Source: Caulochytrium protostelioides (Eukaryota; Chytridiomycota; Caulochytriomycetes; Caulochytriales; Caulochytriaceae). From it: a DNA stretch of 64,000 nt. Shown here one piece after another: positions 3,465 to 46,130 of this stretch (positions are counted from its first letter, which is position 1; each line of letters opens with the position of its first letter). The stretch covers positions 62,001 through 126,000 of the forward strand of contig ML014144.1 in the NCBI GenBank assembly GCA_003615045.1, read 5' to 3'. The notes under the pieces are model-generated. The model was not told the DNA's origin and searched no databases. It was given only the letters and a program-made list of their open reading frames with translations. Made by a program: the position numbers and the translations under genes.

Positions 3465-3524
3465 AATGCGCACACCAATCTTCGGTGGTGACCCCTAGGG
3501 ATCCCCCCGAAGCAGACGCGCATT
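3465..3524 (-). ncRNA. Candidate omega-RNA scaffold, copy A
   Basis: Starting 5 nt after the relic A stop codon, the minus strand can fold into a three-tier hairpin. The outer stem is AATGCGCG (3524-3517) with TGCGCATT (3472-3465). The middle stem is CTTCGGGGG with CCACCGAAG (ends at 3512 and 3480). The apical stem is GATCC-CTAG-GGGTC. The same architecture with different bases occurs behind relics B and C. TnpB and Fanzor elements are known to encode their guide RNA scaffold at the 3' end of the nuclease gene, which makes that identity the leading inference. Expression cannot be judged from sequence. Confidence 0.45.
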
Positions 3525-4026
3525 CGGTTCAGTATCGGATGACTTTGTCGACCTTGGGCTGCAATCTGGATTGCTCCGGGTTGCGGCACAGCGCTATCGG
3601 TCTGTCCGGTAAGGCCAGACAGCGTCGGATGTTCAACGCGGCATTCAGGTCGCGGTTCAAAAACTTGCTATGGATGGCTTCACTGCCGGGGGGCGGCTTC
3701 ATACTACAACAACCCTCGGACCACGGTTCTCTGGCGCCGGTGTGGACTGGGTTGCAGGACCACATGCCTCCGCACCATTGTCCGCTTGGCATCAGAGTGT
3801 CTACGTGATCCCGTCGGGCACCGCCCGTGGAGGCCACGTCGCCAGACGTCAAGGTGGCGCGATGCTCAGCGGACGATCGTCCCGACGCTGGACGTCAGTG
3901 TGTCGACGAGATCTCGCCGTCGAAAAGAACCGAGCGACGCGACCGTGAGGGCGGCCGTCTCGTACCTGCCATTGGGCGTCGCCGGGTCAGCTCTTGAGCA
4001 GTGCAGCCTGCTGAAAGCCTTTAGGT
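3465..4026 (-). mobile_element. Fanzor/TnpB-like element relic A (C-terminal end only)
   Basis: On the minus strand an open stretch ending at a TGA (3531-3529) encodes LNRDLNAALNIRRCLALPDRP. This is the RuvC-III signature of TnpB and its eukaryotic relatives (Fanzor), where the Asp of NRD is a catalytic metal ligand. Upstream there are scattered cysteines and, in another frame, VVLQP and RRQRTVVRG, which match relic B (VLKPGQRRRKGTVLR) and resemble a frameshifted zinc-ribbon region. Homology to relic B continues to about 4026 and stops in both copies at the same GAAAGCCTTT sequence. The N-terminal nuclease and DNA-binding parts are missing. The element is therefore a non-functional tail. Family assignment rests on the NRDLNAALNI motif plus three-copy conservation; the exact ends are uncertain. 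Confidence 0.7.
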
Positions 4027-4113
4027 CAGTATGACTCAAATGGGGAGGGAAAGGGATTGCTTAACGAGAAACTCTTTTCGAGCCAATACCCATATGAAAT
4101 GCATCGATCCACC

Positions 4114-4555
4114 CTAGACAGGAATGGCGGCCGCAAAACGATCAGCAAGACGATCAAATGCATTCGACTTGGCATCCAAGTCGGTGCTGTAAGGGTGCAT
4201 TGGCTCTCGCTGTCGCAACATCTGCTCATACTGCATCATGCTTGCTTCGTCAGGAACAACGCGTTAGCCCTCCGCCTCCGACGTTTCGGCATCGGGATGA
4301 CCGACATTCAGCGCCACAGCCGCAGCGATGGCCAGCAGATCCGCTTCTTCACGAGCGGCCTTCGAGGGACCCATCAGCTCCCCGCAAGCATCACGCAGAA
4401 TGGATGCAGCCGCCATTCGGTCGCCTGCAAGCAACCGGCACAGCGCCTTACCGGTCAGCAGCTTCGGCGCCACGACGCCACGTTGCTTGCCACCAGCTCA
4501 TCATACTCATACGATGCGAACTCGAAGAGTTTCCAGGACGGTATGGAAATGCTGA
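4114..4555 (-). pseudogene. COPE: Epsilon-COP (COPE/SEC28) pseudogene fragment
   Basis: The minus strand encodes the C-terminal half of a TPR-solenoid protein resembling the coatomer epsilon subunit: ASYEYDELVASNV, then APKLLTGKALCRLLAGDRM and AAASILRDA, then VALNVGHPDAE, then the tail MHPYSTDLDAKSNAFDRLADRF. This is the order seen in epsilon-COP, with the conserved HP...K..FDRL tail. It is broken in two ways. A one-base frame change separates the ELVASNV segment from APKLL near 4475, and a TAA at 4266-4264 interrupts the frame before the tail, which ends at TAG 4116-4114. No GT-AG intron explains either break. Sequence upstream of about 4555 is not recognisable. Relic A starts about 90 nt downstream, so mobile-element activity may have helped displace this copy. 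Confidence 0.6.
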
Positions 4556-4866
4556 ACATACGCCTTGTACGCCCGAGATGTCGCAACGGACCGCTCCCTC
4601 CGTCTTTTATCATGGTATCCGAGCAAGACTTTCGATCAGGTGCCAGGTACCCAGGGGGATCTTCCACGCTAGGAATTTCAAGGGAGAAAGGAGAAGGGAA
4701 CTCAACAGGCATTCATCAAGCCCACCGTCATTTTCAGAGCAACATGTGACTTAGCGACCCAACCACGATGATAGCAAACGACATGTTTCTAACCCGTTAA
4801 AAACGATACTATTCACAAATAAAAGGATGAACGGCTCGAACGGCTGCATGTGGGTTAGGAGGAAAT

Positions 4867-7137
4867 CTAGGCGGTTGCGCCCTGACCGTCGGCATCGCCC
4901 TGCTTCGCGTCCTCCGCGTCCTCATCATCGTCCTCACCGTGGTCATCGTTCTCGTCGTTATCGGACCCTTCCGAGTCCTCGGCGTCGCTGACCTCGCTGT
5001 CCGTGAAATCAGCTTCCTCCTCTTCGTCGTCGTCGTTGTCCGTCGCCGCGCCGCCGTCACTGCCAGCCGCACCAGCCGATACGTCATTGTCGCCTTCGCC
5101 ACGCGCAGCTGCACGGCTGTCCGCCAGTTCCTGCGCCAACGACAGCGCGGCTTTGAGAACATCGGCGCCCGACAGCTTCGGGCGACGCTGCTTGCCGCCG
5201 TCCGCGTCGCGGCCCGCGTCGTCCTCGCTGTCTTCGTCACCGCTGTCGCTCTCACTGCCGGCGTTGCCGCGAGCCATGTCCATCAGCGCTTGGCCTAGCA
5301 GCTCAGCATGCAGCTGTGCCGCGGTTGCGGCGTCACCAGCAAGATCGCCTTCGTCCTCGTCGTCCTCGTCGCCATCGCCTTCGTCACCATCGTCCGCAGC
5401 ATCGCCGTCGGCAGGGTCGTCCTCGTCAGCCTTCTTCGCGGCGTCAAGCGACGATTCGTCGTTCCCATTGTCCTCGAGGTCCGAACCGTCGTTCTCGCTG
5501 CTCGCGTCGCTGTCGCCGTCGGCATGGGCCGCGTGGTCACCGAGCTTCTCGTCCTCCGAGCCGAAGCTCGCGTCGTCCTCGTCCGAGTCTTCGTCCGAGC
5601 CGAACTGGAGCCCCGCGATTGTGTCGTCGCCCTGCGGCGGGACGGCGCCCGGAAACAAGTAGCGGTGAGGCGGCAGAAACCGGATCGGCGCGGCATCGGC
5701 GGCCGCAACCGCGGCGTCCGGCGGCGGCGGCGCCGTCGTGCACTGCTGCGGCGAAACGCCTAAGTCCCACCCGAGCCGGCGGCACAGCTCGGCGCAAATG
5801 ACATCGCTCTCCCCGAGCAGCTGGATATCAAAGCCACGCATGTGCGGCAGCGCCTCGCGGTTGATCAGGATCTGCGGCACGTGGTGAGGGATCTTGTCTT
5901 TGACGTCGGCGACCGGGCTGACCTTAAGGCTCGAGCCCATCACGATCAAGAGATCGACCTGCTCACGGTCTTCGCGGAACGCGTGGTCGAACGCGTCGGG
6001 CAGCTTCTCGCCAAAGAAGACGATGTCCGGCTTTATGACGCCGTCGGCCTCCTCGGGGCACTTGGGGCAGAGGGGCACCGTCTTGGCAAAGATATCTTTT
6101 TCCAGCGCGCTGCCGGGCTGGGTATAGCCGCAGACAATGCAGCGCGCGGTGGCGAAGCTGCCGTGGCACTGGACGACGTTCTGGATCCCCGCTTTCTGCT
6201 CGAGCGTGTCGATGTTCTGCGTGTAGTTGCGCAGCAGCTGGCCCTGGCGCTCGAGCAGGTGGATAAAGCGGTGCGAGGGCGAGGGCTGGAAGTTGGACGG
6301 GTAGATTTCGTGCGCAAAGGAGTAAAATGTCTCGGGGCGGATGCGGAAGTAGTGAATATCGAACATTTGCTGTGGGTCTTCCAGCTCAAACTCGTCCAGT
6401 CGCGCATAAATGCCGTTCTTGCTGCGAAAGTCGGGGATCCCGGTCGAGACGCTGATCCCGGCGCCCGTCAGCACCATGATGTGCTTGGCCTTGCGGATCA
6501 GCTCGACCGCATCATCCAGCGTGTTGAGGTCCGCGCGCTTCTGGCGCTTGCCGTACCGGTCAATGAGCATATCCTGGAACCGGCCGTGCATCTCCTTGCG
6601 GAGGAGTGCGACCGCGTCGGGCTCTAACCCGGCCTCGGCCTGGACGGCCTGCAGCTTCAGGTCCATCTCCTGCTCGAACTGGCGGAACTCCGCCAGCTCG
6701 CCGCGCTGCCGGATCGCGTCATACTTCTCGAGCCACGCCTCCACCGGCATGCGGTGGATATCCTCGCGCATCTGACGCTGCACCTCGTCGGGGATGTGGC
6801 GGTCCGGCGGCGGCGAGGCTGCGAAGGCGGTTCCTGCCTTCCGTGACAGCGCCTCTGCCTCTCCATCGGCGTCCGCATCCGCGTCGGCGTCCGTGTGGTG
6901 GAACTCTTGAGTAATGGGCACCGCCGTCGGCGGCGAGTCGGTCGAAGCTGACAGGGCCGATGCCGATGCGGCTGAGACCGCCGATGCCGATGCGGTCGAT
7001 GTCGATACAGGAGCCGCGGCAGATGTCGCCGAGGAGGGCTCGCTCGACTCAGCGCGAGCCTCAGAAGTGCGCAGGCGCTTGGCGGCGCGGTCGGCGTCCT
7101 CCGCGTCGGAGGCCGGCGGGCGGCGATGTGTGCTCAT
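4867..7137 (-). CDS. SIR2: Class I sirtuin, NAD-dependent protein deacylase (SIR2/HST1/SIRT1 type)
   Basis: Removes acetyl groups from lysines of histones and other proteins using NAD+; probably nuclear. I use the ATG at 7137 because the 38 residues encoded upstream look untranslated. The order is: a disordered Ser/Ala region with a DADADADADADG run (to about residue 95); a helical segment (about 115-205); then the catalytic core. NAD-binding GAGISVSTGIPDFRS is near residue 225, TQNID near 306 and the catalytic His in VQCHGSF near 325. Zinc cysteines are CIVC (333-336) and CPKC (357-360), followed by VFFGEKLP and GSSLKV. All expected catalytic residues are present. The last ~240 residues form an unusually long Asp/Glu/Ser-rich tail after a GWDLGV segment. 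The core and upstream helix resemble fungal Sir2/Hst1 and animal SIRT1; the exact paralogue is uncertain. Confidence 0.93.
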   Translation of the reverse strand: MSTHRRPPASDAEDADRAAKRLRTSEARAESSEPSSATSAAAPVSTSTASASAVSAASASALSASTDSPPTAVPITQEFHHTDADADADADGEAEALSRKAGTAFAASPPPDRHIPDEVQRQMREDIHRMPVEAWLEKYDAIRQRGELAEFRQFEQEMDLKLQAVQAEAGLEPDAVALLRKEMHGRFQDMLIDRYGKRQKRADLNTLDDAVELIRKAKHIMVLTGAGISVSTGIPDFRSKNGIYARLDEFELEDPQQMFDIHYFRIRPETFYSFAHEIYPSNFQPSPSHRFIHLLERQGQLLRNYTQNIDTLEQKAGIQNVVQCHGSFATARCIVCGYTQPGSALEKDIFAKTVPLCPKCPEEADGVIKPDIVFFGEKLPDAFDHAFREDREQVDLLIVMGSSLKVSPVADVKDKIPHHVPQILINREALPHMRGFDIQLLGESDVICAELCRRLGWDLGVSPQQCTTAPPPPDAAVAAADAAPIRFLPPHRYLFPGAVPPQGDDTIAGLQFGSDEDSDEDDASFGSEDEKLGDHAAHADGDSDASSENDGSDLEDNGNDESSLDAAKKADEDDPADGDAADDGDEGDGDEDDEDEGDLAGDAATAAQLHAELLGQALMDMARGNAGSESDSGDEDSEDDAGRDADGGKQRRPKLSGADVLKAALSLAQELADSRAAARGEGDNDVSAGAAGSDGGAATDNDDDEEEEADFTDSEVSDAEDSEGSDNDENDDHGEDDDEDAEDAKQGDADGQGATA

Positions 7138-8714
7138 GGCGGTCAATGTCCGTGAGCGATAAAATGTCCAAGCGTCGACGAAACGAAGAACGGAGAGAGA
7201 ACCGAAGTGTCGGTCGTTGGTCGTATCGCCGTCAACAGCGACACAGAGCAACGAAAAGGGGAGCCGCGTCGGTGAGAGCGACGATCGAAATGGCGGATAG
7301 AGCTAACAGCGAAAACTGAAGAGGATAGAGATGAGCAATGCGAAACTTTCGATCATGTACTCTCTTTGCACATTGATTTCTCATCGTCCGAAACCTAAAA
7401 GGTTTGTTCAATCGTGTCATGACACTACCGCGTGAGGGCGCAGCCATCCTTCCGGGGACGCTTGAGGCCCGTCGTAGTCCACGTGCTTGAGCTTCTTCCC
7501 AACTGCAAGCATGGGCCGGCGCCCGTTCCGGCCAGCGGCGCGGTCACCTGATGCTTGTATGACGTGACCGCGCTCTGCGCGGCCGCATTGTCTGCTCTGA
7601 GGCGTGTCGCTGCTGGCATGCCGGCGGCCGCAGCCGCAGGGCCTCGCCATCGGCGCCTCCTAGCGTTGCGAGTGAGACGGTCACCACCGTCAGCCGAGCA
7701 GACCGCGCGGCTCGCCCCCGCTGGCCGAGGAGACAGGGTGCGGCCTCACTCTTGCGACTCGCCATCGCCCCTTCGAGTCGGAGTTTGTGGCTTGGCAGCC
7801 GGAAACGCGCGTCAACCCACTGACACGCCATGCGCATGAAATCACACTGATGGAGATGCCGCAACGGTAGCCCGTTAGTTTCAGTTGAAGAGTTCAGCTA
7901 CCATGCTAGGCCAAGACGTCTTTCACGATGTTCCCAACGCAAGGTTGGTAAGTGCACGTCATGAATGTTTTTCATGAACATATGGTCATATGGTCGATGA
8001 TGGTAAAAAGTCTGGCTTTTTCTCCGCGATCTGGACTTGGCACATGGCGACATAACTGTTCAAAAGAAACTAATCTTATTTCGTTATTGCTAGTTAACAG
8101 TTCTAGTGCTTTAGCATGCCAATGAATACTAACGACATCGGCCGCTGCTTTCCAGTGATGTTGTGTCTCACGTCTAATGAACTTTTTGCCTGGGTTTAAA
8201 AGGATAAGCGCAGCAGGTCATCGGCACACTTTTTTTGTCTAGAAAGTCAGATGAAAGATTTCTGGAATTTGTAACATAAGTCGATCATACCATACCATTC
8301 ATGCCGATCTTCAAGCAATGACGCCGCCGAGCGCATGACCAGGCGGAATAGCGGCGTCTCTTTTCCGCCACATCGTTTATGCGTGGCCTGCAAACCCCTG
8401 TTCTCGCTGAGACGGAAGACGAGCAAGGACAACGTGTGGCGCGTGACAGAAACGCAAAGGAGCACGGGAGAAAACAACAATGTGTTCCATCAAGCAGACC
8501 TACCCTGGCGGCGCTGCATCAAAGCAGCTGCCAAGCATGATATGGTCACGCGCCTCCAAAACGCACGTTTGAATCGCGCTGTCTTCTGTCTGTTGTACGT
8601 AAGGCTTGTTCCGTCAACGCCGTCGTTGCTGCCATCGCCGCCACCGTCGTCCCCCGTCAGCGCCAGCGTGCTTCCCTGACCTGTTGCTCGCGCTTTGTTC
8701 CGCATTTCACCACC
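7138..8714. other. Intergenic: sirtuin upstream region, short unassigned frames, AT-richer segment
   Basis: Between the divergent sirtuin and Mgr2/Romo1 genes. Bases 7138-7400 are probably the sirtuin leader and promoter. Bases 7417-7864 stay open in several minus-strand frames (for example a stretch ending KLKHVDYDGPQASPEGWL and another with ADNAAAQSAVTSYKHQV), but I recognise no family and cannot tell a decayed gene from chance. Bases 7870-8300 are clearly AT-richer than the surroundings, without a coding signal. Bases 8300-8714 lead into the Mgr2/Romo1 start. Confidence 0.4.
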
Positions 8715-9565
8715 ATGCCGCCGGCCGTCTCGCCAACATACCCCAATGCGCCTCAGGCGCCCACCATGTAAGCTGCGCCTGCCCCTCGGATCCCCTCGAC
8801 CCCCGATGGCAGGGTTGCCCGCTGCAGGACGGCAGGTGCGTGCAGTGCCAACCGGCCAAAGATCCCACCAGGAGCGGGCATGGCATCAAGGATGTCTTCT
8901 GCGAGATGCGAAGGGAGGGCCGGCTATCCTCACGGCGACCCTTCGATCCAACTATCCCCTTCGCAACGCGAAGTTTATCGTAGAGGGATGCATCGCATGA
9001 CTGCTGTCTGCAGACCATCTGGGTCTTGCATGCCGTTGTGCCACGAGCCGGCACGCAGCCCCATCGTCTTCATCGAGTATCGCTCTGTCCAGCTTCGAGG
9101 GATCGCCCTCATTCGTCTCAGATCTGAACTACCGGATGGCTAGCTCGCTGATGGTCACTCACCCCCGTTTTCTCGGTTGTTGTTGGTATGAATTTGGTAC
9201 CGGTTCGATGCTTTTTTTCTTTATTAATGCGACACGATAGGTGGGACAAGGCCAAGATGGGTCTGCTGATGGGCGGCGCGACCGGCGCCTCCATCGGGTT
9301 CATCTTCGGCTCGCTGCAGGCGCTCCGCTTTGGCCCCGAGGGCAACAAGGGCTATATGGGAACCATCGGCTCGTACATGATGCAGCATGGCGCCTTCCTC
9401 GGCTTCCTCTTCAGTATCGCGTCGGTGCTGCGTGCGGACCATGACGGCCCGCTGATGCTCGCCGCGGGGCCGGCTGCGGCCACGCCGTTGACCCCCGCGT
9501 CAGGACTCTTTGCCAGGCGGCAGCGTCTTCCCATCACCCTCATGTCGCTGCCCAGCCGTTCGTAG
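8715..9565 (+). CDS. MGR2: Mgr2/Romo1 mitochondrial inner-membrane protein, two exons
   Basis: Small two-helix inner-membrane protein of the family containing yeast Mgr2 (lateral gatekeeper of the TIM23 translocase) and animal ROMO1. Exon 1 is 8715-8767 (MPPAVSPTYPNAPQAPT), followed by donor AT|GTAAGC. The 473-nt intron 8768-9240 ends TTTATTAATGCGACACGATAG. Exon 2 is 9241-9565. Joining gives ...APTM-WDKAKMGLLMGGATGAS and then FIFGSLQALRFG, GTIGSYMMQHGAFLGFLFSI and ASVLR. These are the two glycine-zipper membrane helices and the intervening basic loop of the family. The 125-residue length is close to yeast Mgr2; the ~40-residue tail after the second helix is low complexity and not conserved. 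Splicing is needed to give a conventional ATG and N-terminus. Confidence 0.9.
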
Positions 9566-9663
9566 TCTTCCGGTTCTTGTTTCATGTGCCCCTGCACCCC
9601 GCTCTTTAGTCTTCTCTTTGTTTCTTTCATTCTTATAATCGTTTCTCGTGACCGTGTTCAGAT

Positions 9664-11427
9664 TTAGCTCGACTGCGCCGGCGGCGTCGCGGTCGGCGCG
9701 GTTGGAAGCGCCTTGATTTCTCGCTCTTGGGTCTCGTCGCGGGCTTGCTTGAGGAACGGAATGATCTTGGTCCCGCCGGTCCCCTTGGCCGCGAGGCTCT
9801 GTTGGACGCGACGCTGGCGAATTTCGGCGCTGGTCCCGCCGGTCCCGCCGTCCCCGGCGCCCGCGGGGACGCCTGCCGGCGGCTTGCGCGTGGCTTGGAC
9901 AATGATGTAGGCGCTCACCATGCGGATATGGGCCGAGCGGAACGCCGTCATGGCGCGCACGGCGGCGTTATATGCGTTCACGAGCGCGGCCGTGGCGTCG
10001 GCCTCTGCCGACGCCTGTCCGGAAGCGGCAGCGGCAGCGGAGGCGGCGACGCGCTGCAGCACATATGCGCGCAGACTGGTCTGCGATTCGAGGAAGGCGA
10101 GGAACTTGCGGTGCTGTCCCGGCATGTAGCGGCGCATCTCGGCGATGTGGTTCACGGGCCGACGGGAGGGTGTGGCGGGCGAGCCGGGAACTTCGCCTGC
10201 GCGGGCGTCGTCGCCGGCGCGGTCCCGGCTCGCCGTAGGCGCGGCCCCCGCCGACGGCGGTTCGGGTGTCGGCAGCGGTCCGAGGCGCCGCGCATCGTCT
10301 GGCGTGCGGCTCTCCTGCGCTGGTGTCGCGAGGTCCTGCGGAAGGATGTCAGGAACGGCCTGGGCGTCAGCGCCGCCGAGGGGCAGCTCGTCGGGACGGA
10401 ACGACAGCGTATCGTCGCGCGTCGGGTAGTGCCGCACGTCCAGCGCCACGTCCAGCGCCTGCATCAGCGCGCTTTGGCCGGCACTGCTGCCGGCGGCCTT
10501 GAGCCAGCGGCCGTACCGGACGACGCCGTCCGCCGTCTGATACGTGCACACCCTCGGGTCTTCCCGAGACGGGGCCCCGCGCTCGGCAGGCGAGAGCTCG
10601 TAGAAGAGCCCGTCGGGAAGCTCGAGACTACCTTCCCACCCGGCGAGGTAGACGCGTGTGCGGTGGTAAAAGATGTGCGGGTCGTTGGATTCGATCATGC
10701 GACCCAGCATCGCGCCGAGGGCCGTGATCAGATCGGCGAGCTGGGCGAGCCGCGCCGTGACGGCGGTGCCGTCGTCGCGGGCTGCGGCCTGCTGCGCTTC
10801 CAGAATCAGTCGCGGCGCGCGCCCTCCGCGGGCCTCAATGCCCGCCGAGATCAGGTAGAACCACGCCTCGTCCATGCCCGTGAAGCTGTGCATGATGCCC
10901 ATATTGTCCAACGACCACGGCTGGGCCGGATCGACGATGTGCAGGTTCCATAGCACCGATGCCGCGTACGTCGAGACGGGTGGAAGGCCCAGCTGGGTGG
11001 AGACGCGTTTCCACGGCGTGGCGAGCACGTGGGGTAGCCATCGCGAGGCAGCCTCGTTCTTGGACCATACGTAGCCGTGCGCGATAAACGCGAGCAGCAG
11101 GTACGCACGCTTCCATGCGGCGAGCTCGGCGCGCGTGGCGTGCTCAAAGGGCGGCAAGGCGGAGATCGGGAACGGCGGCAGCGCTGTCTCCACGTGGCGT
11201 CGGAGCTGGCGCACCAGCAGAAACGCTTGCAGCTGGCTCAAAAGCGTTTCCCACGGCGCAAAGTCGGGGTGCAGATCCACCAGGGTCTCGCGCGGCGGCG
11301 GGTCGACATCGAGGAAACCATACTCGCTGTCCAAGCCATACGTGGCCAGTTGCTTCGCAATCGACGCATCGACGGATGCGGAGGATGCCGATTCGGCCGC
11401 TTCCGGGGGCGGCTGCTGGCCCGTCAT
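9664..11427 (-). CDS. BNA2: Indoleamine 2,3-dioxygenase (tryptophan to N-formylkynurenine)
   Basis: Haem dioxygenase that opens the indole ring of tryptophan, the first step of the kynurenine route to NAD+; cytosolic. Start ATG at 11427; the 41 codons open upstream begin only at GTG and are not conserved. Recognisable family segments are SEYGFL near the N-terminus, PWSLDNMG and FTGMDEAWFYLISAGIEARG (helical large domain), IFYHRTRVYLAGW, SAGQSALMQALDVAL, and MRRYMPGQHRKFLAFLE. The proximal haem ligand is predicted to be His500, in FRSAHIRMVSAYI. Between about residues 400 and 445 a Pro/Ala/Arg-rich insert separates the SAGQS helix from MRRYMP, and the last ~90 residues are low complexity, which explains the 587-residue length (fungal IDOs are usually shorter). 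It ends about 100 nt from the convergent Mgr2/Romo1 gene. Confidence 0.93.
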   Translation of the reverse strand: MTGQQPPPEAAESASSASVDASIAKQLATYGLDSEYGFLDVDPPPRETLVDLHPDFAPWETLLSQLQAFLLVRQLRRHVETALPPFPISALPPFEHATRAELAAWKRAYLLLAFIAHGYVWSKNEAASRWLPHVLATPWKRVSTQLGLPPVSTYAASVLWNLHIVDPAQPWSLDNMGIMHSFTGMDEAWFYLISAGIEARGGRAPRLILEAQQAAARDDGTAVTARLAQLADLITALGAMLGRMIESNDPHIFYHRTRVYLAGWEGSLELPDGLFYELSPAERGAPSREDPRVCTYQTADGVVRYGRWLKAAGSSAGQSALMQALDVALDVRHYPTRDDTLSFRPDELPLGGADAQAVPDILPQDLATPAQESRTPDDARRLGPLPTPEPPSAGAAPTASRDRAGDDARAGEVPGSPATPSRRPVNHIAEMRRYMPGQHRKFLAFLESQTSLRAYVLQRVAASAAAAASGQASAEADATAALVNAYNAAVRAMTAFRSAHIRMVSAYIIVQATRKPPAGVPAGAGDGGTGGTSAEIRQRRVQQSLAAKGTGGTKIIPFLKQARDETQEREIKALPTAPTATPPAQSS

Positions 11428-17099: not shown

Positions 17100-17137
<38 letters not shown>

Positions 17138-35917: not shown

Positions 35918-35961
35918 GCTCTGCCTGGCTCTGCCTGGCTCTGCCTGGCTCTGCCTGGCTC
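35918..35961. repeat. 10-bp tandem repeat CTCTGCCTGG x4
   Basis: Four perfect consecutive copies followed by a degenerate CTCGGCCCGG unit, in noncoding sequence. Confidence 0.9.
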
Positions 35962-36401
35962 GGCCCGGCGCCCTCCGCCCATCGGACGCGCCGGGTCCAG
36001 CGGTTGGGCGTCACGAAGGCGAAGGCGACGCGAAGCGAAGCGAAGGCCGCGGTGCGCGCTAGTGAGGTGACAAACCGACCCCATCACAGCGATCGACCAC
36101 GATGCGCCATCCGACGGTCCCCTGATGCGCCTGCCGCCCCCCGCGAGAGCGCGTCCGCGAGACAGCCGTCGCGGCATGGACGAAAATTGATGGTGTTCGC
36201 GATCGTTCTGGAGGCGCATCATCTGGCGTCCGAACGGCGCCGGCCGCGATCTCGAAGGCGGCTTCGGGAGGCGGCGGCGGCGGCGGCGGCGGCGGCGGCC
36301 GGCCGCCCCCAGCAGGCGCCGTGTCATCACGCCGCGGCTGCCATCGCTTGACGAGGGGCGGCCGGCGCCGCGCCTGCCCCTTCTGAGGGCGCCTGCCACG
36401 C

Positions 36402-36402
36402 C

Positions 36403-36443
<41 letters not shown>
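36402..36443. repeat. (GGC)n trinucleotide microsatellite
   Basis: About 14 uninterrupted GGC units in noncoding sequence; a shorter GGC run lies at 36271-36300. Confidence 0.95.
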
Positions 36444-36446
<3 letters not shown>

Positions 36447-38198
36447 TGATCGGCAGACAGACGGGGCGACTGCCCTCCCGGCACGCCGCCGCCGCCGGCC
36501 CCTTGGGCGCGCATGGGCGCCTCCCGCCGCCGCCGTCGGCACGGCGATGGGCAGCATCGCGGAAAGCACACGATCCTCACCCCACCGGTTCGCGGGGGTC
36601 ATCACCCTTCGCGGAGCGTCTCACCCCGCACAGGCGCTAAACGGGTGGGCGGCCACGAGCGCGCAACCTCGCGTCGAAGCAAGACAGACAGCAGACGCCA
36701 GCACGGCTGCAGAGATACGGACAGACAGGGAGGAGATGTCTTGGCAGGCGCTCCACAGGGCGCGAGGGAAGCGCACTCACGCTCGTCGGACTCGTGGTGC
36801 GCCCATACCGGTGGTCATCCCCACGGGTGTTCTGCGCCATGCACGATCAAAGTGGTCCGACGTCGCTCTTGTCGTCGTGGTCGTCGTCGGCCCATGTGCG
36901 TCCGTCCATGTCGATGTCGATGCCAGCGTTTGCTGCCGCTCTGTCGTAGGCTCTGGCCGTGCTCGCCGCCCTGGTTCCGTAACTGGCCATGTGCCACCAC
37001 CATTTAGAGAAAGAACGGACGGGCGCCGAAACACACACATCGCCTCTCGTATACCCCCTCTGATCCGCCGTCCGAGCCGCTGCGGGTCCTGGCCCGCGAC
37101 ACGAGCACGAGCAGGTCGTTATCCAGATCGTGTCTGGCCAAGGACCCTCGCCATACCCACCGGCCATCGCCCCACGGCCCCGGGCCACATCTTGCTTGCA
37201 TCTTGCCTACATTGATGTCCACGAGCGACGGCTGCCGCTTTGCTCGACACGGTGATTTGTATTCTTGGGCTTGACCGGATCGCCATCTTGGTGCCTCGGG
37301 CATCGCCATCGCCACCGCCATCGTCGTGCTTCACTGTTCGTGTCGCCATCGCCACCGTCATCGTCGTCGCCTCCGCCGCCAAATCGTTCTTTCACGCCGG
37401 CTGCGTGACCCGGGTATCACGTCCTGCATTGCCGACCCGCGCGCTTCCGTTACTGGGGGAGCACCGCGTTCCTCGGCCATCAATCGCAGCGACGACGAAC
37501 GGCACGCGCATCTGGCAGCAGTGTGCCTTGATTCCGGCGAACGGAAGGCCCTTGTGGGTGTGGCGCCCGCAACGACGGCATCCATCGTCTGTGCCGTCGT
37601 CGCCGTTGATACTGCCCATCGGCGGCCCTTGTGAGACGCGAGCTACCGCTGCTGCGGCTCCTGGTGCCGCCCCCCGTCCTTCCCCCCCTTAGCCGCCCGC
37701 CCGCCCGCCCGCCGCGCGGCGCCATTCTACCGATCGCACGTGGCCGTCCGCCACGCCAGTCGTGTCCCGTGTCAACGACGGTTACGCCCCCTTTCCGACT
37801 CCGACTCCGACTCCGACGCCAGCGCTGAGCCGCTGAGCCGAGTCGCGGACTTGTGCGCGTCGGGCCCGCCGCCCGCGAAGGCCCGCGCTGCGTCTTCTGT
37901 CACCCCTCAGTCCACCGCCTCCGTCCGCCCGTGATCGCCGTCGTCCTCGCTGCATACGTGCCGGTGAGCCGGAAGGGTCCCCCCGGTCTCTCGGGGCGAC
38001 GGGCGTCGGCGTCGTGACCGCGGGCGCGGGGCGCAGGTCACCGTGGGCAGCCCTTGGACCCGCCGATCAGACGCGCCGCTCGCGGGTGACGGCGTCGGCA
38101 GCCGGTGTGGACGTGGCGGCGACGGCGGCCGCGGCGGCAGCAGCCCTCTTGCTCCGCGCGGCTCCGGCCCTGTGCGCCGAGCCGGCTCGGTGGGTGGC

Positions 38199-41100
38199 AT
38201 GGCGTCGGCCGACAGCCGGAGTACGGTGGACTCGGGGATCGCGAAACTCACCCAGACATCTAGCAAGGACAGCGTCCTGGCGCTGCCCGCCATGGAGGCC
38301 GACACCTCGGCCCGCTCGCTGCACGGCGCGGCGGGCGCCGCCGCGCCCTCCCGCCGCTCCGAGGTCCCGCTCCCCGACGCCAAGAGCGGCTTCACCGCGC
38401 GCATCAAGCGCCCCGGGTTCTTAGGCAAAAGCGACGCGTCCTTTTTGACCGCCAACAACAGCACTGCGGCGCTGTTTGCGACGCCGCCCTCCTCACAGCC
38501 CATCCTGCAATGGTCGCACCCGCACTCGGGTCCAGGACCCGGGCCCGGGCCAGGCGCCTTGGCGTATGTCTCGGGAAACAGCTCGAACGGCGGCATCTCG
38601 CTGGGCTCGCCGCCGCCCCAGCCGGCGGCCGAGCCGAACCTCGTGATGAACCGGTCGTCGGCGCTCCTCGGCGCGAAACACGGCTCCATCGAGTCGCTGC
38701 AATCGGTCACCGCGCCCGATACCGATGCCACGTCGATCTACAGCTTCAGCAAGCGGCCGACCGTCGGCGATGGGATCAGCCGCTTTTTCCGCAAAACGAT
38801 GGCGCTCTCGCGCAACCACACCGAGTGGCACGCTTCGCACGCACACGCGCACGCCAGCCAGGGCCTCGGCGGCCACGGCCACTCCGTCTCGCAGGCCCAC
38901 CTCCCCACGGGCACCGCCCTGCTCCAGTCCGGCGACGACCCGTCGCCCGTGACCTCTGCGCGCAACTCGATGCTCTACAGCCGGCAGCCCGTCAGCGCCC
39001 CCGAGGGCTCGCTGAGCATCACTACCCAGGCTGATCTGCCGGCGGCCGGCAACGCGCCGCTCACGGGCGCGCCGCCCCCGAGCGCCGCCTCGACGGCCGG
39101 CTCGACGTTCTCGGAGCGCGCCGCGTTCCGCACCAGCCCCTCGCGGCAGCTGCCCAACGGCATGCGCCGCCAGTTCTCGAACGGCAACATGCCGCTGCCG
39201 CCGCCATCCGCAACGTCTTCCGCGGCGTCCAAGTGGCGCGGTACGATGTCCAAAGCCATCAGCCAGGCCTTCCGCAGCGATATTCCGATGGATCCGATGG
39301 CGCTCGAGCGAAGTTGCGCTGACATGTCGATGGTGCTGGCCCTACCTGGCGAGTATGACACGATTGACGAGTCCGTGAGCTTTTCGACGCTCCCGGGCGG
39401 CGGCAGCGTGTACCGCCAGATGATGCAGTTTAATGTCATCTGGGGCACGCGTGCCCTCGTGATTCGCTTGCCCGCGGACGTCGTGGTGAGCGCGGCGATC
39501 CGCACCGTCATGACCGACTTTGTTAACACGTATGGTGATGAGGTCGCCGAAGCCGAGCGCGTGCTGGCCGAGGCCCATGTGGCGCAACACACGCTCTTCC
39601 GCAACATTGGCACCAGCTCGGTCGTGTACTATGTGCCGATCGCGCCGTCGGCGGTGCTCGCGCAATGCGAAATCTGCCAGGGTGACACGTTGCATTTGAT
39701 CAACCTCGAAGACGTCGCGACGCTCAGCATCGTGGTGCTGCCGTCGATGGAGCGCATGGCCATCGAATATGCGTACGACACGCTTGTCTCGGAGGTTACC
39801 GCCGCACTGGAGCAGCGCAGCGCCCCACCGTCGGTGACCTACGCGCTGTACCACTCGAAGCTGAGCCACTGGCTCGTCCCCGACCGCTCCCTGATGGCGT
39901 ATCGTTTTGCGCCCGACACGGTCCTGGAGTGGCGGCCGAAGAGCCCCGAGATCCTCATCCGTGTGGAGCTCGAAGAGCAGCAGCAGAAGATCGCGTTCAA
40001 GGTGCTCAGTAGCCAAACGGTCGCGGACCTGCTGGAGCTCGTGCTGTTCCAGATGGGCAACCGCAGCTTGAAGCCGCAGGTCAGCAACGGCGTGTACGGT
40101 CTCTGGTCGTCGCGCCACGGCCGCTGGATGACCAACTCGGCCGTGCTCGCGGAGGTGCCGGACCTGCACAACGACACGCTCGTCTACCGTGTGCACTGGC
40201 AGTCGATCCAGGTCAAATGGTTCTACGGCAACGACGATCCCCTGACCGTGCTCGCCGACCAGGGCATGACCGTCGCAGGTCTGCGTCACCTCTGCTGCCA
40301 ACTGCGCCACACCGCGTGGCACGCGTCCTACAACCTATACACCCGCTGGCTGGCCCCGCTGGACCCCGACCAGTCGATCTGGACCCTCGCCTCCGACATC
40401 GGCGGCACCGACAACTTCTGGTTCCGCGACACGCCGCAGCCGCTGACGATCACGTGCTCTGACAACAGCCACGCCCAGACCGTGCCGTGGTCCTACGGGA
40501 TCCCGCTCCGCTTGACGCTGCCGTTCATCTGCCGCCGGCTCGGCGTTCCCGCGCACATGTACGACACGCTGTGGCTCGTCCAGAACTGCGGCACGGCCGC
40601 CGAAAAGCCAGCCGCCTCCGCCGCCGCACCAGCAGCGCCGGTCGCGGCAGCGCTGGAGCTCGCGACCGCCGAGACAGCGTCCGGCAACGGCACGCCCGTG
40701 GGCACCTCGCACCGCTTGTTGGACCTGGACGCGAGCCTGACCGAGCAGCATGTGGCGCCCGGCGCGACGGTGATGCTGCGTCTCAAGCGGCTCCTCACGG
40801 AACCCCCGTCGCCGGACGACCTTTGGGCCGAGCTGCGGTCAGGGCAGACGCTCGACCCGACGCCCTGGGAGCAGACCCACAAGCCCGCGAGCGGGTCCTC
40901 GCTCAACCGGCTCATCGAGCGTCTGACCGATGAGATCAGCGAAGGCTCGTCGCTCTATCTGGACTTTGTCAAGAACTTCTTGTTGACGTACTCGTCCTTC
41001 AGCGACGCAAACACGATCATGAGCAAGCTGATGGACCGTTACAACGTGCCGAACCTGCCCGAGGCTAGCGTCGCGCAAAACGAACTCTCGCGCAAGACCA

Positions 41101-42086
41101 TCCAACTGCGCGTGTGCAACGTGTTGCTGCAGTGGGTGAAGCGGTTTCGCACCGACTTTATCGACGAGACCCGCGGCCCGCGGCTGCAGGAGCAGCTGCT
41201 CGCCTTTGCCGAGAATGTGGTGGTCTATGACCATCCGGCCATGACGAAGCAGCTGCGCCGCGCAACGATCAAGATGCGCGACGACATGGTCCTCCGCCCC
41301 GGCGCGATCCTCAACCGGCTCCGGGGGCCAGGTCAAGCCGTTTTGACCAATGTGTCGCTCTTCCAGCGCGCTCCGGAGGAAATTGCGCAGCAGATGACCT
41401 TGATCGAACAGCAGTTGTTTGCGGCGATCACGCCGAACGAGCTGCTGTGCCAGTCGTGGGCGCAGCGGGACGCGGCGACGCGCGCGCCCAACATCACGCA
41501 GCTGACGTCGCACTTCAACGCGCTGGCGCTGTGGACTGTCAAGAGCGTCGTTGAGCCCGCGACCGTCAAGCAGCGCGCGAAGCGGCTCAGCTTCCTCGTG
41601 GACGTCGCCGAGCAGCTCCGCGAGATGGGCAACTACAGCACGCTCATGGCCATCATCGCAGGTCTCAACAAGGCCTCGGTTTTGCGGCTGAAGCTCACGC
41701 TCAAGGAGTGCGGGCCCAAGTGCCTGCGCAAGATGTCCGAGCTCGAGACCCTCATGTCGGCCGACGGCGCATACCGTAATTACCGTACGGTCGTCAAGTC
41801 GTCGATCCTGCCCTGCATTCCCTACATCGGCGTAGTGTTGCTCGACCTGACCTTCATGGAGGACGGCAATCAGGACCGCATCGGCGACCACATCAACTTT
41901 GTTAAGCGCCAGATGATCGCCGAGGTCATCCGCGACTTGGAGCTCAAGCAGACCACCGCATACCCGTTCAAGTGGAACGACGAGGTTGCTCGCTCCTTTG
42001 TCCTGCTGCCGCGCGCTTCCGTCGAGTACGAGAGCCAGCTCTGGGCCGAGTCGAAGCGCAAGGAATCGTCACAGCCTGCGCAGTAG
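38199..42086 (+). CDS. Ras-family guanine nucleotide exchange factor (RasGEF_N + CDC25 domain)
   Basis: Activates Ras/Rap-type GTPases by promoting GDP release. ATG at 38199 (MASADSRSTVDSG); the open frame above starts at GTG only. Residues 1 to about 400 are disordered, with Ser/Ala/Pro. About 400-870 hold several consecutive beta-grasp-like modules, each ending in a strand pattern like TNSAVLAEVPDLHNDTLVYR or LLDLDASLTEQHVAPGATVM. RasGEF_N is at about 900-1020 (LNRLIERLTDEIS, YLDFVKNFLLTYSSF). The catalytic CDC25 domain (about 1055-1277) contains LIEQQLFAAITPNELL, NALALWTVKSVV, FLVDVAEQLREMGNYSTLMA with IIAGLN, and CIPYIGVVLLDLTFMEDGN. 1295 residues. The substrate GTPase is not evident. It resembles fungal Cdc25/Ste6 only in the catalytic part. 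Fanzor relic B lies 127 nt downstream. Confidence 0.9.
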   Translation: MASADSRSTVDSGIAKLTQTSSKDSVLALPAMEADTSARSLHGAAGAAAPSRRSEVPLPDAKSGFTARIKRPGFLGKSDASFLTANNSTAALFATPPSSQPILQWSHPHSGPGPGPGPGALAYVSGNSSNGGISLGSPPPQPAAEPNLVMNRSSALLGAKHGSIESLQSVTAPDTDATSIYSFSKRPTVGDGISRFFRKTMALSRNHTEWHASHAHAHASQGLGGHGHSVSQAHLPTGTALLQSGDDPSPVTSARNSMLYSRQPVSAPEGSLSITTQADLPAAGNAPLTGAPPPSAASTAGSTFSERAAFRTSPSRQLPNGMRRQFSNGNMPLPPPSATSSAASKWRGTMSKAISQAFRSDIPMDPMALERSCADMSMVLALPGEYDTIDESVSFSTLPGGGSVYRQMMQFNVIWGTRALVIRLPADVVVSAAIRTVMTDFVNTYGDEVAEAERVLAEAHVAQHTLFRNIGTSSVVYYVPIAPSAVLAQCEICQGDTLHLINLEDVATLSIVVLPSMERMAIEYAYDTLVSEVTAALEQRSAPPSVTYALYHSKLSHWLVPDRSLMAYRFAPDTVLEWRPKSPEILIRVELEEQQQKIAFKVLSSQTVADLLELVLFQMGNRSLKPQVSNGVYGLWSSRHGRWMTNSAVLAEVPDLHNDTLVYRVHWQSIQVKWFYGNDDPLTVLADQGMTVAGLRHLCCQLRHTAWHASYNLYTRWLAPLDPDQSIWTLASDIGGTDNFWFRDTPQPLTITCSDNSHAQTVPWSYGIPLRLTLPFICRRLGVPAHMYDTLWLVQNCGTAAEKPAASAAAPAAPVAAALELATAETASGNGTPVGTSHRLLDLDASLTEQHVAPGATVMLRLKRLLTEPPSPDDLWAELRSGQTLDPTPWEQTHKPASGSSLNRLIERLTDEISEGSSLYLDFVKNFLLTYSSFSDANTIMSKLMDRYNVPNLPEASVAQNELSRKTIQLRVCNVLLQWVKRFRTDFIDETRGPRLQEQLLAFAENVVVYDHPAMTKQLRRATIKMRDDMVLRPGAILNRLRGPGQAVLTNVSLFQRAPEEIAQQMTLIEQQLFAAITPNELLCQSWAQRDAATRAPNITQLTSHFNALALWTVKSVVEPATVKQRAKRLSFLVDVAEQLREMGNYSTLMAIIAGLNKASVLRLKLTLKECGPKCLRKMSELETLMSADGAYRNYRTVVKSSILPCIPYIGVVLLDLTFMEDGNQDRIGDHINFVKRQMIAEVIRDLELKQTTAYPFKWNDEVARSFVLLPRASVEYESQLWAESKRKESSQPAQ

Positions 42087-42212
42087 TCCGCTCGGGGTCG
42101 TTCCGCGGGGGTTCTAGGCCTTTTTTGTCGGTGGCCGTAGACGTTGTGTGGCCGGTCCATCTATTCTTCATCTTCTGGATATATTTGATTTACAGATACC
42201 TTAGGACAGCGC

Positions 42213-42273
42213 AACACAACGCCATACCCTCCATGGTGCCTCTGGGAGGTTCCCCACGGGGGCAGTCCGCATT
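42213..42273 (-). ncRNA. Candidate omega-RNA scaffold, copy B
   Basis: Begins 4 nt after the relic B stop. Minus-strand pairing: outer stem AATGCG (42273-42268) with TGTGTT (42218-42213), all six positions pairable when wobbles are counted; middle stem CCCCCGTGG with CCATGGAGG (ends 42262 and 42228), eight of nine paired; apical CCTC-CCA-GAGG. Same architecture as copies A and C with different bases. Identity as a guide RNA scaffold is inferred from position and co-variation. Confidence 0.45.
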
Positions 42274-42663
42274 ACGTTCATTGCCGGATGAGCTTCTCGA
42301 CCACGGGCTGCAGTGGGGCTTGCCCGGGGAAGCGGCACAGTGTCGCAGATCTGACAGATGAGGCCAGGCAGCGTCGGATGTTCAACGCGGCATTGAGATC
42401 GCGGTTCACAAACCTGCCGTTGGTAGAATCGCACCAAAGTTAACTTCGGAGCACGGTCCCCTTGCGCCGGCGTTGCCCTGGTTTCAGGACCGCATTCGTC
42501 GTGGCATACGCCTGGATCGTGCGGACCCGGTTGACCGGCGTCGGCTGAGTCGAGAGGGCGTCTGCATCAACACTCGCTGAGCTGCGCCCTTGTGGGACTA
42601 CCAGATCAGCGTCTCTGAGCGGTCGATTCGGAGACGCTGACGACGCTGAAAGCCTTTTGGGTG
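42213..42663 (-). mobile_element. Fanzor/TnpB-like element relic B (C-terminal end only)
   Basis: On the minus strand the best-preserved tail reads NAVLKPGQRRRKGTVLRS, then a TAA, then LWCDSTNGRFVNRDLNAALN and IRRCLASSV, ending ...VVEKLIRQ and TGA (42280-42278). This fits the end of a TnpB/Fanzor nuclease: zinc-ribbon remnant with a basic loop, then the RuvC-III motif NRDLNAALNI. It has an in-frame stop, lacks most ribbon cysteines and has no N-terminal two-thirds, so it is dead. It is colinear with relic A up to the shared GAAAGCCTTT boundary near 42650-42663. The upstream ORFan stop codon lies only 22 nt beyond that boundary. RasGEF ends 127 nt from its other end. Confidence 0.72.
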
Positions 42664-42685
42664 ATGAAAGGTTATGCGCGCAGGG

Positions 42686-44599
42686 TCACTTAGCAGATTT
42701 AAGACCGGATTTTAAGAGGTGTAGTTGCTCTCTCAACGATTTAAAGTCCGGGACAAAGGATTCCGTGGTCAAACCATAACCAGAAGATGCTGAGGCCAAA
42801 TCGGTGGGTGGCTCGAGGTGAAATTTGATTGGGTAGCCGCTATTGCGGATAACGGCGTTGGTCATGTCGGATCTAGATTTATAGAGTTCCTGGAGCCAGT
42901 TGTCAGATTCTGGTGACTCTTTCACGGGGTCGTGCAGAAGCGTTTGGGTGTCGCGATCGACAATGATGCCGTTTTCGGCAGCCATTATGCCAGCCGCGGT
43001 GAACGCTGCCTCACGAACTCTGTTGCGAAATATCCATAGATCATTGACGTCCCTTTCAAGATCGTTCAGAAAGACTGCTTCTGCTCGGTACGTGCTAAGC
43101 TTCAGGAAAACTGCATCTGCATCAGAGAGTAACCCGTTAGCTAGTTGCCATTTCTTGAAGGCTTTGGTGATTGCCATGTAAACGTCATCCCTTGCAGAAT
43201 TCATTTCCGCTGAGTCGGGTGAATTGTCCGCCGATGTCATCAGGCTCACAATGTTGTCTAAATACCGTGTATCCGGCTTCTTCGGTATCTTCTTCCAAGT
43301 CGCGAGGAATCTGACGGATCTGATCGCACGGTAAATGTTACGTTTGATGTTGTGGTCCAGATTGAAGTACTCGGCTATCATTTCACCCACGACCGTTTGG
43401 TAGCTCTTGATCGCCCCTAGCTGATACTCATGCACCCGGACACTCGCATCGATGGCCAGGGCGTGGAGTATGCGTTTTTGTCGGAGGTCTGAAAATCGAC
43501 CCCTTGCTTCATTCCAGTGGGTTGGTATCACTTTGTTTGTCACGAGGGACACAAGTTTGTGGGAAAACTGCTTATAGGCAGAGTCCAGTAAGTGCTTTTG
43601 TTTCTCGACATCAAGCACTCTCAAAAACTCTTTGACTGTGGTATCGGCCTTCTTGCTAGTGGTCTTGTCAGATTCTTCGTCCCCGGCCTCGAAGTCCCTC
43701 TCTTCAGAACCTAGAACTGTCACTATGTCCTTTTTCTTTCCCAAGAGCTTGTTCTGTTCCAGAATGTCATCTTCGTCCGCTAACGAGTAAGCCTTCAAGA
43801 ATTCCGCCGCTTGAGTTGCGAGTTGCGAGTTAGACGATTCCATCTCAAGAAGTTTCGTCGCTGTGTCGAATTTACGCGCGAGGGTTCCGAGGCTAATCTG
43901 AAGCATGGATAATAGCGAGTCTTTTTGCAAGAGCGCTGCAGAGTGCACGGCGAAGCCTTGTCTCAGCGAAAGGCGTATCTGTGCAGGAGCCCATCTGCGT
44001 AGCATATTGCAGTAAAGCGAGTCGGCTGTAGCCAACATCTCGTCGACGTTCGAATCACCAGCGAATGGTGGTTTCCACTCACGGTACGCACTCTGGAGGG
44101 ATACGAGTTCATCATGGTCATTGGTAAATTTTGAACCAATCCGCAAGAACACGAGTTGCTCTCTTTGATTTTTCAAATCCTTTTGGCGCTCAGCGAGTCC
44201 GGTGATCTCATCGTTAATTCGTTCTATGATTTTGGAAGGATCTTTCGGCGTATTGTCTGCGGCAGATTGATCATTGGTCTGCGCCCTCGGCGGACCGCCT
44301 CGTTTCCGTGAGTCATATGACCTTGATTCTGGGGCGACCCCGGCCTCAACTGCAGTACGTTTCTTTGGTTTTTCGTTGACGACTGCTGTTGACGAGGGAT
44401 TAACGGTAACGCTGTGATCAAGACCCGTGCCCTGCACTTTCGCAGTGGCCTCCGGCTGGAAGCTGACCAAGTACTTCGCGTGCTCTTCGGGAGTCATCTT
44501 TTTAAGTGGTTTGTCAGGTAGTACTTTACGACTCTTGGCCCTTGTCGGGATAATCGATCCAGCAGCATTCGAGCCGGTAATGGATAGGCCGGACGACAT
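42686..44599 (-). CDS. ORFan, 637-aa charged helical protein of atypical (low-GC) composition
   Basis: Unrecognised protein. First ATG at 44599 (MSSGLSITGSNAAG); the frame opens at GTG 44617 but is closed by TGA at 44641-44639. Codon use is strikingly unlike the rest of the window: A/T third positions are common and Ala tracts are absent. Residues 1-120 are basic and disordered, with KPKKRTAVEAG and SRKRGGPPRAQ (possible nuclear signals). From about 125 (KIIERINDEITGLAERQKDL) the protein is predicted mostly helical to about 560. An acidic insert lies near 295-315, and there is a conserved-looking core NIKRNIYRAIRSVRFLATWK. No membrane segment, zinc motif or nuclease motif is visible. It sits between outward-facing Fanzor relics B and C and ends 22 nt from relic B. 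It may be mobile-element cargo or a captured viral or foreign gene; sequence alone does not decide. Confidence 0.75.
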   Translation of the reverse strand: MSSGLSITGSNAAGSIIPTRAKSRKVLPDKPLKKMTPEEHAKYLVSFQPEATAKVQGTGLDHSVTVNPSSTAVVNEKPKKRTAVEAGVAPESRSYDSRKRGGPPRAQTNDQSAADNTPKDPSKIIERINDEITGLAERQKDLKNQREQLVFLRIGSKFTNDHDELVSLQSAYREWKPPFAGDSNVDEMLATADSLYCNMLRRWAPAQIRLSLRQGFAVHSAALLQKDSLLSMLQISLGTLARKFDTATKLLEMESSNSQLATQAAEFLKAYSLADEDDILEQNKLLGKKKDIVTVLGSEERDFEAGDEESDKTTSKKADTTVKEFLRVLDVEKQKHLLDSAYKQFSHKLVSLVTNKVIPTHWNEARGRFSDLRQKRILHALAIDASVRVHEYQLGAIKSYQTVVGEMIAEYFNLDHNIKRNIYRAIRSVRFLATWKKIPKKPDTRYLDNIVSLMTSADNSPDSAEMNSARDDVYMAITKAFKKWQLANGLLSDADAVFLKLSTYRAEAVFLNDLERDVNDLWIFRNRVREAAFTAAGIMAAENGIIVDRDTQTLLHDPVKESPESDNWLQELYKSRSDMTNAVIRNSGYPIKFHLEPPTDLASASSGYGLTTESFVPDFKSLREQLHLLKSGLKSAK

Positions 44600-44745
44600 G
44601 TCGTCCTGCTGTTCCACCGGAAACGGCGACGCCGAGGTTCATGTGGCCGCACAGATAGTCAGGGCGACCATAATGGCCAACGATTGGCCGACAAACAGCA
44701 TCATGATGCTGGAGCCACGCAACAGCGGGGCGAGCGAGATAGCAA

Positions 44746-44748
<3 letters not shown>

Positions 44749-44810
<62 letters not shown>
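44749..44810. repeat. (GA)31 dinucleotide microsatellite
   Basis: A perfect 62-base GA run, the longest simple repeat in the window, located 150 nt upstream of the ORFan start. Confidence 0.98.
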
Positions 44811-44814
<4 letters not shown>

Positions 44815-45073
44815 GTAAAGCAGACTGTGGTATGATACCACCAACGGCACACGCGGATCCACGTAGATCCACGCAAAGGTGGGGAGAACGAGATGGCAAA
44901 CAGGAAGACAGCGAGCTAGCCAACAGAGAGAGCGAGGAAAGTAGGGTGAGCGTAGAAGGCAAGGGGCTGCCCAGGAGGAGAGGCAGAACTTAGGCGAACC
45001 TGTGCTGCGGTCTTCATACCCAACAGGAGCGAGCGCGGCATGAAGCGCCTTGTGAAGGTTGTCACCGTTGTTC

Positions 45074-45125
45074 GATCCCTCCATCCCTCCATCCCTCCAT
45101 CCCTCCATCCCTCCATCCCCCCATC
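45074..45125. repeat. 8-bp tandem repeat ATCCCTCC x6
   Basis: About six near-perfect copies in noncoding sequence inside the island bounded by the Fanzor relics. Confidence 0.92.
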
Positions 45126-45859
45126 CGGGTGATGGTACAGCGCCATGCTATCCCGCTATCTCGCTCCCCCTGTTGACACCTCGTCTGGTTGTTAAAGGAG
45201 CCGCCCGGAAGTCAGTCAGCTTAGAAACTCCGCTCGACCATGCCGCTAGCCGCGAAAGCTTGCTGCATGTATGACATGCGCAGGGCCCCCGGTGAGCCCC
45301 CGGCTTGGAGCCCGCGGCAAGACGAGCGCCCGTCGCCCCGGCGAGGGTGGTCCGCCTTATTGGACCGACTCGGCGAAGAGCGAGGGCGCGCCACGATCCA
45401 GATGCTTCGACATGTCTTGTATTTCGCGCTTGCTTCAAAAGCCACACCGGCGCAGGCTATTCCTCCAGCCATTAATATTTTTCGATGCGGGCACTGTTTG
45501 AGCGGAGGAGGGTTTGGGGTCTATAGTCGAAGCTGCGAGCGGCCGGTGCACGGCTGATGGGATCTTGCCCCGCTGTCTGCTTGAGTCGAAAAAAGGAAAG
45601 ACTGGGGGATGGGGTAGGGGTGGAGTGGGCGGCTAAAGCGGATCAGGATGAACAGTCACCTTGCCAATGAGGACGGCGAGCGACTCCGCATCCTTCAAAG
45701 TCGAATTCTCGCCGAGCGGAGTGGCACCCGAAAGAAATGCTGTGCGTCTGTCTGGCATTTGCCTGAAGGAAGGAGCCAAAAAAGTTTTTCAAAAGAAGAA
45801 ATTCAAAGAAATTCAAGAATGCAGGTCAAGTCGCAAAACTGAATGATCTAGCGCCGTCA

Positions 45860-46130
45860 ACATCAGCGTCCCTCGGTAACTGAAGACAGCTGCACTGCCG
45901 GCTTATAAGGGGCATGTTTGTGAACCGCGATCTCAATGCCGCGTTGAACATCCGACGTTGTCTGGGCTGATCCGCCAGACATGAGACGCTGTGCCGCAAC
46001 CCCGGGCAAGACCCCCGGCAGCCCAGGGTAGGCAAGTTCATTGGGAGATGAGCCAAATGGGCCAATTGCGCTACTGCCTCGGTGGGAGGGCACCCTCGGG
46101 GGGCACCACGGAGGGGATGGCGAGCGCATT
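45860..46130 (+). mobile_element. Fanzor/TnpB-like element relic C (C-terminal end only)
   Basis: Plus-strand copy of the same tail: LHCRLIRGMFVNRDLNAALN, then IRRCLG and a TGA. The reading frame is broken, but a colinear stretch (ETLCRNPGQDPRQPRVGKFI, ending at TGA 46049-46051) matches the C-terminus of relic A (ALCRNPEQSRLQPKVDKVIR). Homology upstream of NRDLNAALNI is limited to about 40 nt, less than in relics A and B. It is in inverted orientation relative to B, with its 3' end about 40 nt from the stop codon of the mevalonate kinase gene. Confidence 0.68.
46065..46130 (+). ncRNA. Candidate omega-RNA scaffold, copy C
   Basis: Begins 13 nt after the relic C stop. Outer stem ATTGCGCT (46065-46072) with AGCGCATT (46123-46130), seven of eight paired. 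Middle stem CCTCGGTGG (46077-46085) with CCACGGAGG (46106-46114), eight of nine paired. Apical stem GAGG-GCAC-CCTC (46086-46097). The fold matches copies A and B despite base changes in both arms. Confidence 0.45.

Follow-up and report, generated by a model that had tools for sequence, protein, structure and literature searches.

Fanzor1 proteins with solved structures are encoded by elements that have a 3′ interval between the stop codon and the right end (PMC10432273). In SpuFz1 this interval contains a 75-nt scaffold, which is combined with a 14–15-nt guide (PMC10432273), and the RNA of GtFz1 is 150 nt long (PMC11423790). The DPG motif of RuvC-I and a RuvC-II glutamate shifted to a few residues ahead of the zinc-finger site are regarded as fingerprints of Fanzors (PMC10711439), and a C4 zinc finger is part of the stricter motif definition of Fanzor1 (PMC3627910). 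Repeats with these genes are known from several genomes. CRe-1 to CRe-3 of Chlamydomonas are Helitron2 elements that carry Fanzor1 and are 5′-truncated through one-ended transposition, CMe-1A of Cyanidioschyzon has about 150 copies that are about 80% identical to their consensus (PMC3627910), and in Auxenochlorella a Fanzor is the repeat with the highest abundance (PMC12636532).

Here we analyse a family of Fanzor1-like sequences from Caulochytrium protostelioides, starting from a 64,000-nt stretch of contig ML014144.1 (the window). The family resembles SpuFz1, GtFz1, and PpFz1 in the profile of its RuvC half, the DPG motif or its equivalent, the shifted glutamate, and RuvC-III, and shares with the Fanzor1s of solved structure an interval on the 3′ side that extends from the stop codon to the right end (PMC10432273). 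It differs from the three proteins in that the C4 zinc finger is absent, and the copies examined are all broken. The likeness to the repeats of algae is one of description: CRe-1, CRe-2, and CRe-3 also have many 5′-truncated copies with constant 3′ ends, but in their case clear duplications frequently follow T-rich sites (PMC3627910), whereas duplications are not in general excess here; CMe-1A and the Auxenochlorella repeat are likewise abundant Fanzors of unknown class in small genomes, although their hosts differ (PMC3627910, PMC12636532).

Three copies in the window

The window contains three copies, each composed of a coding relic recognised by its profile match, a TGA codon that closes a short protein-tail piece of the NRDLNAALNIRRC type, and a hairpin evaluated by folding against shuffled sequences. 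Copy A lies on the minus strand. Its coding relic, the C-terminal end of a Fanzor1-like protein, occupies positions 3529–3658 (TGA at 3529–3531), the hairpin 3465–3524, and the tail 3429–3464. The outer boundary of the tail, position 3429, is the right end, recognised by an abrupt drop of conservation across nine copies. Copy B, also on the minus strand, consists of a coding relic at 42278–42407 (TGA at 42278–42280) and a hairpin at 42213–42273. Analysis of 5′ limits extends the upstream similarity to about 3771–3777 in copy A and about 42564–42607 in copy B. Copy C lies on the plus strand and is 5′-truncated, with the coding relic at 45890–46051 (TGA at 46049–46051), similarity starting at about 45909, the hairpin at 46065–46130, and a tail at 46131–46182, the end of which was placed using the flanking repeat. 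This repeat, TGAAGACAG, is present at 45881–45889 and 46183–46191 on the plus strand and may represent a 9-bp target-site duplication. The hairpins begin 4, 4, and 13 nt after the TGA codons of A, B, and C, as the first-pass annotation of the window had placed them (4–13 nt past the relic stops).

Copies B and C are located, in outward orientation, within an island of lower GC content (42100–46170; 0.53–0.55, compared to about 0.65–0.75 in the surroundings), which is flanked by genes for a RasGEF and a GHMP kinase. Together with a SAM-domain protein, the RasGEF may point to a host among the relatives of amoebae, fungi, and animals. The island also contains a 643-residue open reading frame on the minus strand (42686–44617) without a match in Pfam, a perfect run of 31 GA copies (44749–44810), and an array of 6.5 copies of ATCCCTCC (45075–45126). 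The possibility that B and C terminate a single 4-kb element in inverted orientation, with the 643-residue frame between them, was considered and rejected. The identity of B to C (0.78) does not stand out from that of cross pairs (mean 0.74, standard deviation 0.05, maximum 0.81), and duplication in their flanks is not above the null; therefore, we treat B and C as two insertions.

Relationship to Fanzor1 nucleases

A protein search yielded 27 relatives, 24 of which are on contigs shorter than 4 kb, and 22 of them were used for an alignment (A3) and a profile. The profile matches the solved Fanzor1 proteins PpFz1 (3.1e-12), SpuFz1 (1.4e-6), and GtFz1 (5.1e-4); a single broken copy used as a lone query has no match. 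Motifs corresponding to RuvC-I (DPGRTN), RuvC-II (VDEFRTT), and RuvC-III (NRDLNAALNI) can be read in the upstream parts of the copies. DPGRTN is present in loci L042 and L046 and in the alignment of relatives, and some decayed copies have DPD in place of DPG. The shifted RuvC-II glutamate is invariant and is embedded in DEFR[TS][TS] in most of the aligned relatives, with VDEFRTS in L046. The RuvC-III aspartate is found in its RD-N-A-A-N-I context, of which R199, D200, and N202 are invariant in all 22 sequences. Thus, the profile matches and RuvC motifs bear out the initial identification of the three places as relics of a Fanzor-type nuclease.

The region between RuvC-II and RuvC-III, where the C4 zinc finger would be expected, contains no cysteine in L046, and alignment A3 has no conserved CxxC pair. 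The family therefore fails the published Fanzor1 motif (PMC3627910) and is named Fanzor1-like here; the spacing from glutamate to finger has no reference point, because the finger is absent. The match to Pfam family PF07282 (0.041) is below the cut-off, and the genome search with it gave no match, with four candidates. Among distant relatives outside alignment A3, P0026 matches PF07282 at 1.1e-12 and P0027 falls marginally below the cut-off. The NCBIfam search with four proteins gave a weak TnpB match for P0013 as its sole match, and none of 25 pattern stretches was confirmed as a viral relative. Among the titles found in the literature searched, none concerns a Fanzor1 branch that lacks the zinc finger, which is not proof of novelty. 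The suggestion that the family may be undescribed holds in that we found no description of it, but abundant Fanzor repeats and 5′-truncated Fanzor1 repeats have already been published (PMC3627910, PMC12636532).

Many copies contain an additional repeat-like stretch of the RAGASPAKPTPATPVGKTRV type between RuvC-II and RuvC-III, for example L012:1200–1520, where Tandem Repeats Finder reports no array. The stretch is missing from L046 and P0001.

Copy number and decay

With at most three mismatches allowed, a 24-base signature taken from the 3′ end of the coding region occurs at 457 places in the genome (20,945,662 bases in 337 contigs), 233 in forward and 224 in reverse orientation, while the backwards control gives none. 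A protein query for the upstream half produced 514 candidates, and the 150 scored gave 151 matches. Further copies elsewhere in the genome had been anticipated, and with 457 places in 21 Mb the Fanzor1-like family has left an extensive fossil record, which allows the spread, right end, and death of such an RNA-guided nuclease element to be traced.

The state of the copies was surveyed in 90 sources, namely the window and 89 loci, of which 20 are limited to 651 bases and six were chosen for reverse transcriptase. In two sources, L042 (526 residues) and L046 (287 residues), a single open frame joins the three RuvC motifs, and no N-terminal half is recognisable by eye in either frame. The frames are broken in the copies examined, and the fragments in the window are most likely without function now. 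The expectation that intact copies probably exist elsewhere is not borne out among the 90 sources; about 370 of the 457 signature places lie outside the survey and may hold some.

Diversity in the last 42 codons of 94 copies is 0.231 at first, 0.250 at second, and 0.255 at third codon positions (p 0.30), which is the pattern expected for neutral drift. In the same comparison, diversity is 0.306 in the hairpin, 0.444 in the stretch 3′ of it, and 0.614 in the tail, so that the hairpin is more variable than the coding end (0.23–0.26). The copies have a common 3′ end and scattered 5′ limits, which in 43 3′-anchored copies lie between -1145 and +94 relative to the anchor. By a second method, the limits range from -1509 to -13 in 64 copies, 18 of which run to the edge of the sequence examined. 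A cluster of 5′ limits at -150 to -200 may arise where a variable stretch interrupts the profile chain.

Right end of the element

Nine copies of the subfamily of copy A agree up to TTAAACTCAATAT, and their agreement drops to the background level from the next base. This places the right end of copy A 100 nt from the stop codon and 36 nt beyond the hairpin. Because the nine copies were selected by a motif at that end, their agreement in the final bases ahead of the edge is in part a product of the selection, whereas the drop past the edge and the agreement further upstream are not. A conserved interval from stop to right end, followed by variable sequence, is a feature of omega-RNA loci and is present in these nine copies. 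In a second subfamily, represented by eight copies, the right edge is not sharp and fades through an A-rich run. A terminal stem immediately before the right end was suspected from a palindrome seen by eye in several copies, and was rejected in a blind test of the terminal 52 nt of 92 copies (4.67 compared to 4.44 in shuffled sequences, p 0.18), in which stems of at least 6 were found in 15 copies compared to 17 in the flank.

Hairpin folding and covariation

Folded within the limits given by the first-pass annotation, the hairpin of copy A has a z of -4.06 (0 of 200 shuffles as good), whereas B and C reach -1.65 (14 of 200) and -1.43 (15 of 200). The values for A, B, and C are -4.44, -2.15, and -1.13 with some flank included, and -3.05, -2.15, and -2.17 within the alignment limits. 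Copy A alone is thus clearly beyond chance, and B and C are weak. The mean z of the family is -1.35 (87 of 89 copies), which is better than that of coding sequence (-0.66, 79 copies; p 8e-5) and of downstream flank (0.01, 78 copies; p 1e-12). The hairpin of the family is real, modest, and inherited. In their minimum-free-energy folds, 46 of the 87 copies retain at least four pairs of the middle stem, 29 retain as many of the outer stem, and 18 do so for both stems. Rfam gives no match for the window at the gathering score and one chance-level match for ten loci. L046, which has the most complete RuvC frame, lacks a hairpin at the site (z +2.55; 200 of 200 shuffles fold as well).

The structure proposed from the three copies alone was described as three stems that covary. 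In the middle stem, the letters are correct, including the U-A pair at position 2 in A that is C-G in B and C, but the stem contains one mismatch in every copy. The outer stem AATGCGC/GCGCATT is perfect in A and has one mismatch in C, but B forms another stem. The apical stems, said to differ in sequence yet all close, are not homologous between B and C: in alignment A1, read by eye, C pairs columns 66–69 with 74–77, and B pairs columns 73–76 with 85–88, so the comparison is between different stems.

Covariation was evaluated in an alignment of 37 copies, which includes B and C and excludes A, and in a set of 89 copies, which includes A and its subfamily. For the 37 copies, RNAalifold predicts three pairs at -0.26 kcal/mol with no compensatory change. 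The proposed structure has 87.3% of its cells paired, compared to 86.0% in shuffled alignments (7 of 500 as high) and 44–56% when slid along the 37 rows, and the inverted repeat is therefore inherited. Two-sided change affects four pairs compared to 4.9 expected, and the covariation score is 0.157 compared to 0.143 (43 of 500 shuffles as high). The 89 copies were tested with a tree-aware null written for this analysis in place of R-scape. The 40 best column pairs include no proposed stem pair, and no column pair of whatever kind reaches significance (lowest E 5). Among the 23 proposed pairs, two-sided change gives a p value of 0.007 for the middle-stem centre and one of 0.077 for position 2, and the share paired has p values of 0.020 and 0.037 at two other pairs. 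None survives correction over the 23 pairs, and the four positions are suggestive but not significant. Covariation of the stems is thus not confirmed in either set, and the sequences do not demonstrate selection on the hairpin, although the test has low power either way because the copies drift neutrally. When a hairpin is common to three relics and one or two of its bases look compensated, this does not yet count as evidence of a selected RNA, and such claims need the comparison of more copies first.

Origin of the hairpin

The explanation that we favour, and find somewhat more likely than not, is that one abundant transposon family encoded a zinc-finger-less Fanzor1-like RNA-guided nuclease, that the three places in the window are its dead, 5′-truncated copies, and that the hairpin would be the fossil of an omega-RNA scaffold located between stop and right end. 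It draws on the observed protein homology, copy number, common 3′ end, varied 5′ limits, broken frames of the copies examined, neutral codon pattern, and right end of one subfamily, and on the hairpin folding better than its controls. The omega-RNA role of the hairpin is probable from its position and from homology. The distance of about 100 nt from the stop to the right end corresponds to the interval that holds the SpuFz1 scaffold, which we count in favour; the covariation null, the variability of the hairpin, its absence from L046, the fading edge of the second subfamily, and the selection of the nine copies by motif count against. The original designation of the hairpins as omega-RNA scaffolds accordingly agrees with their position and length, up to an end sharp to one base in the subfamily of copy A, and not with the covariation results.

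Alternatively, the hairpin and A-rich tail could be a 3′ signal for reverse transcription, by which LINEs retropose the copies in trans. This is unlikely, although it would produce 5′ truncation with a constant 3′ end, as the scattered 5′ limits suggest, and is compatible with an omega-RNA role. The genome contains a LINE with endonuclease and reverse transcriptase (L092) and another in which the endonuclease match is marginally below the cut-off (L090), but neither has a match to the Fanzor ends. Copy C is enclosed by TGAAGACAG, which occurs twice on the plus strand of the window, and one subfamily has A- and AT-rich tails of varied lengths; against this, target-site duplications are not in general excess (mean score 5.28 compared to 5.29 in 78 copies, with 3 compared to 0.7 at scores of at least 9; 3 compared to 1.2 in a test of 73 copies). 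A hairpin end that served both as scaffold and as LINE tag, in a zinc-finger-less Fanzor1 branch that reached several hundred copies by 3′-end retroposition, appears markedly less plausible. Between these two in likelihood is the view that the hairpin is a structure at the terminus of a DNA transposon, for example Helitron2, read from the 3′ end, with one-ended transposition truncating the 5′ side. The anatomy is that of CRe-1, with 5′-truncated and 3′-overabundant Fanzor1 copies, and Helitrons carry 3′ terminal hairpins (PMC3627910), but the hairpin stops 36 nt short of the right end in A and the terminal 52 nt show no excess of stems in the blind test. A search for the replicase PF14214 gave no match, which does not show its absence, as control genomes were equally silent. 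Least probable of all, we consider, is a functionless GC-rich inverted repeat inherited by chance: neutral divergence, the covariation null, the loss in L046, and the fact that two of the three window hairpins are within reach of shuffled sequence fit this, whereas the family mean fold is better than both the coding and flank controls, and the hairpin sits where Fanzor1s keep their scaffold (PMC10432273).

Arrangement of neighbouring copies

A list of 155 places shows no orientation bias within 4 kb (3, 3, and 3), and the arms of head-to-head pairs are not specially alike. Close neighbour pairs among the 89 loci and the window comprise nine in outward (head-to-head) orientation, one inward, and two in tandem. 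The outward pairs are located in L021, L022, L023, L031, L035, L036, L045, L050, and the window (42192–46154). At L093:980–2724, a Fanzor copy is in two parts with a reverse-transcriptase piece between them, as though the piece had inserted there.
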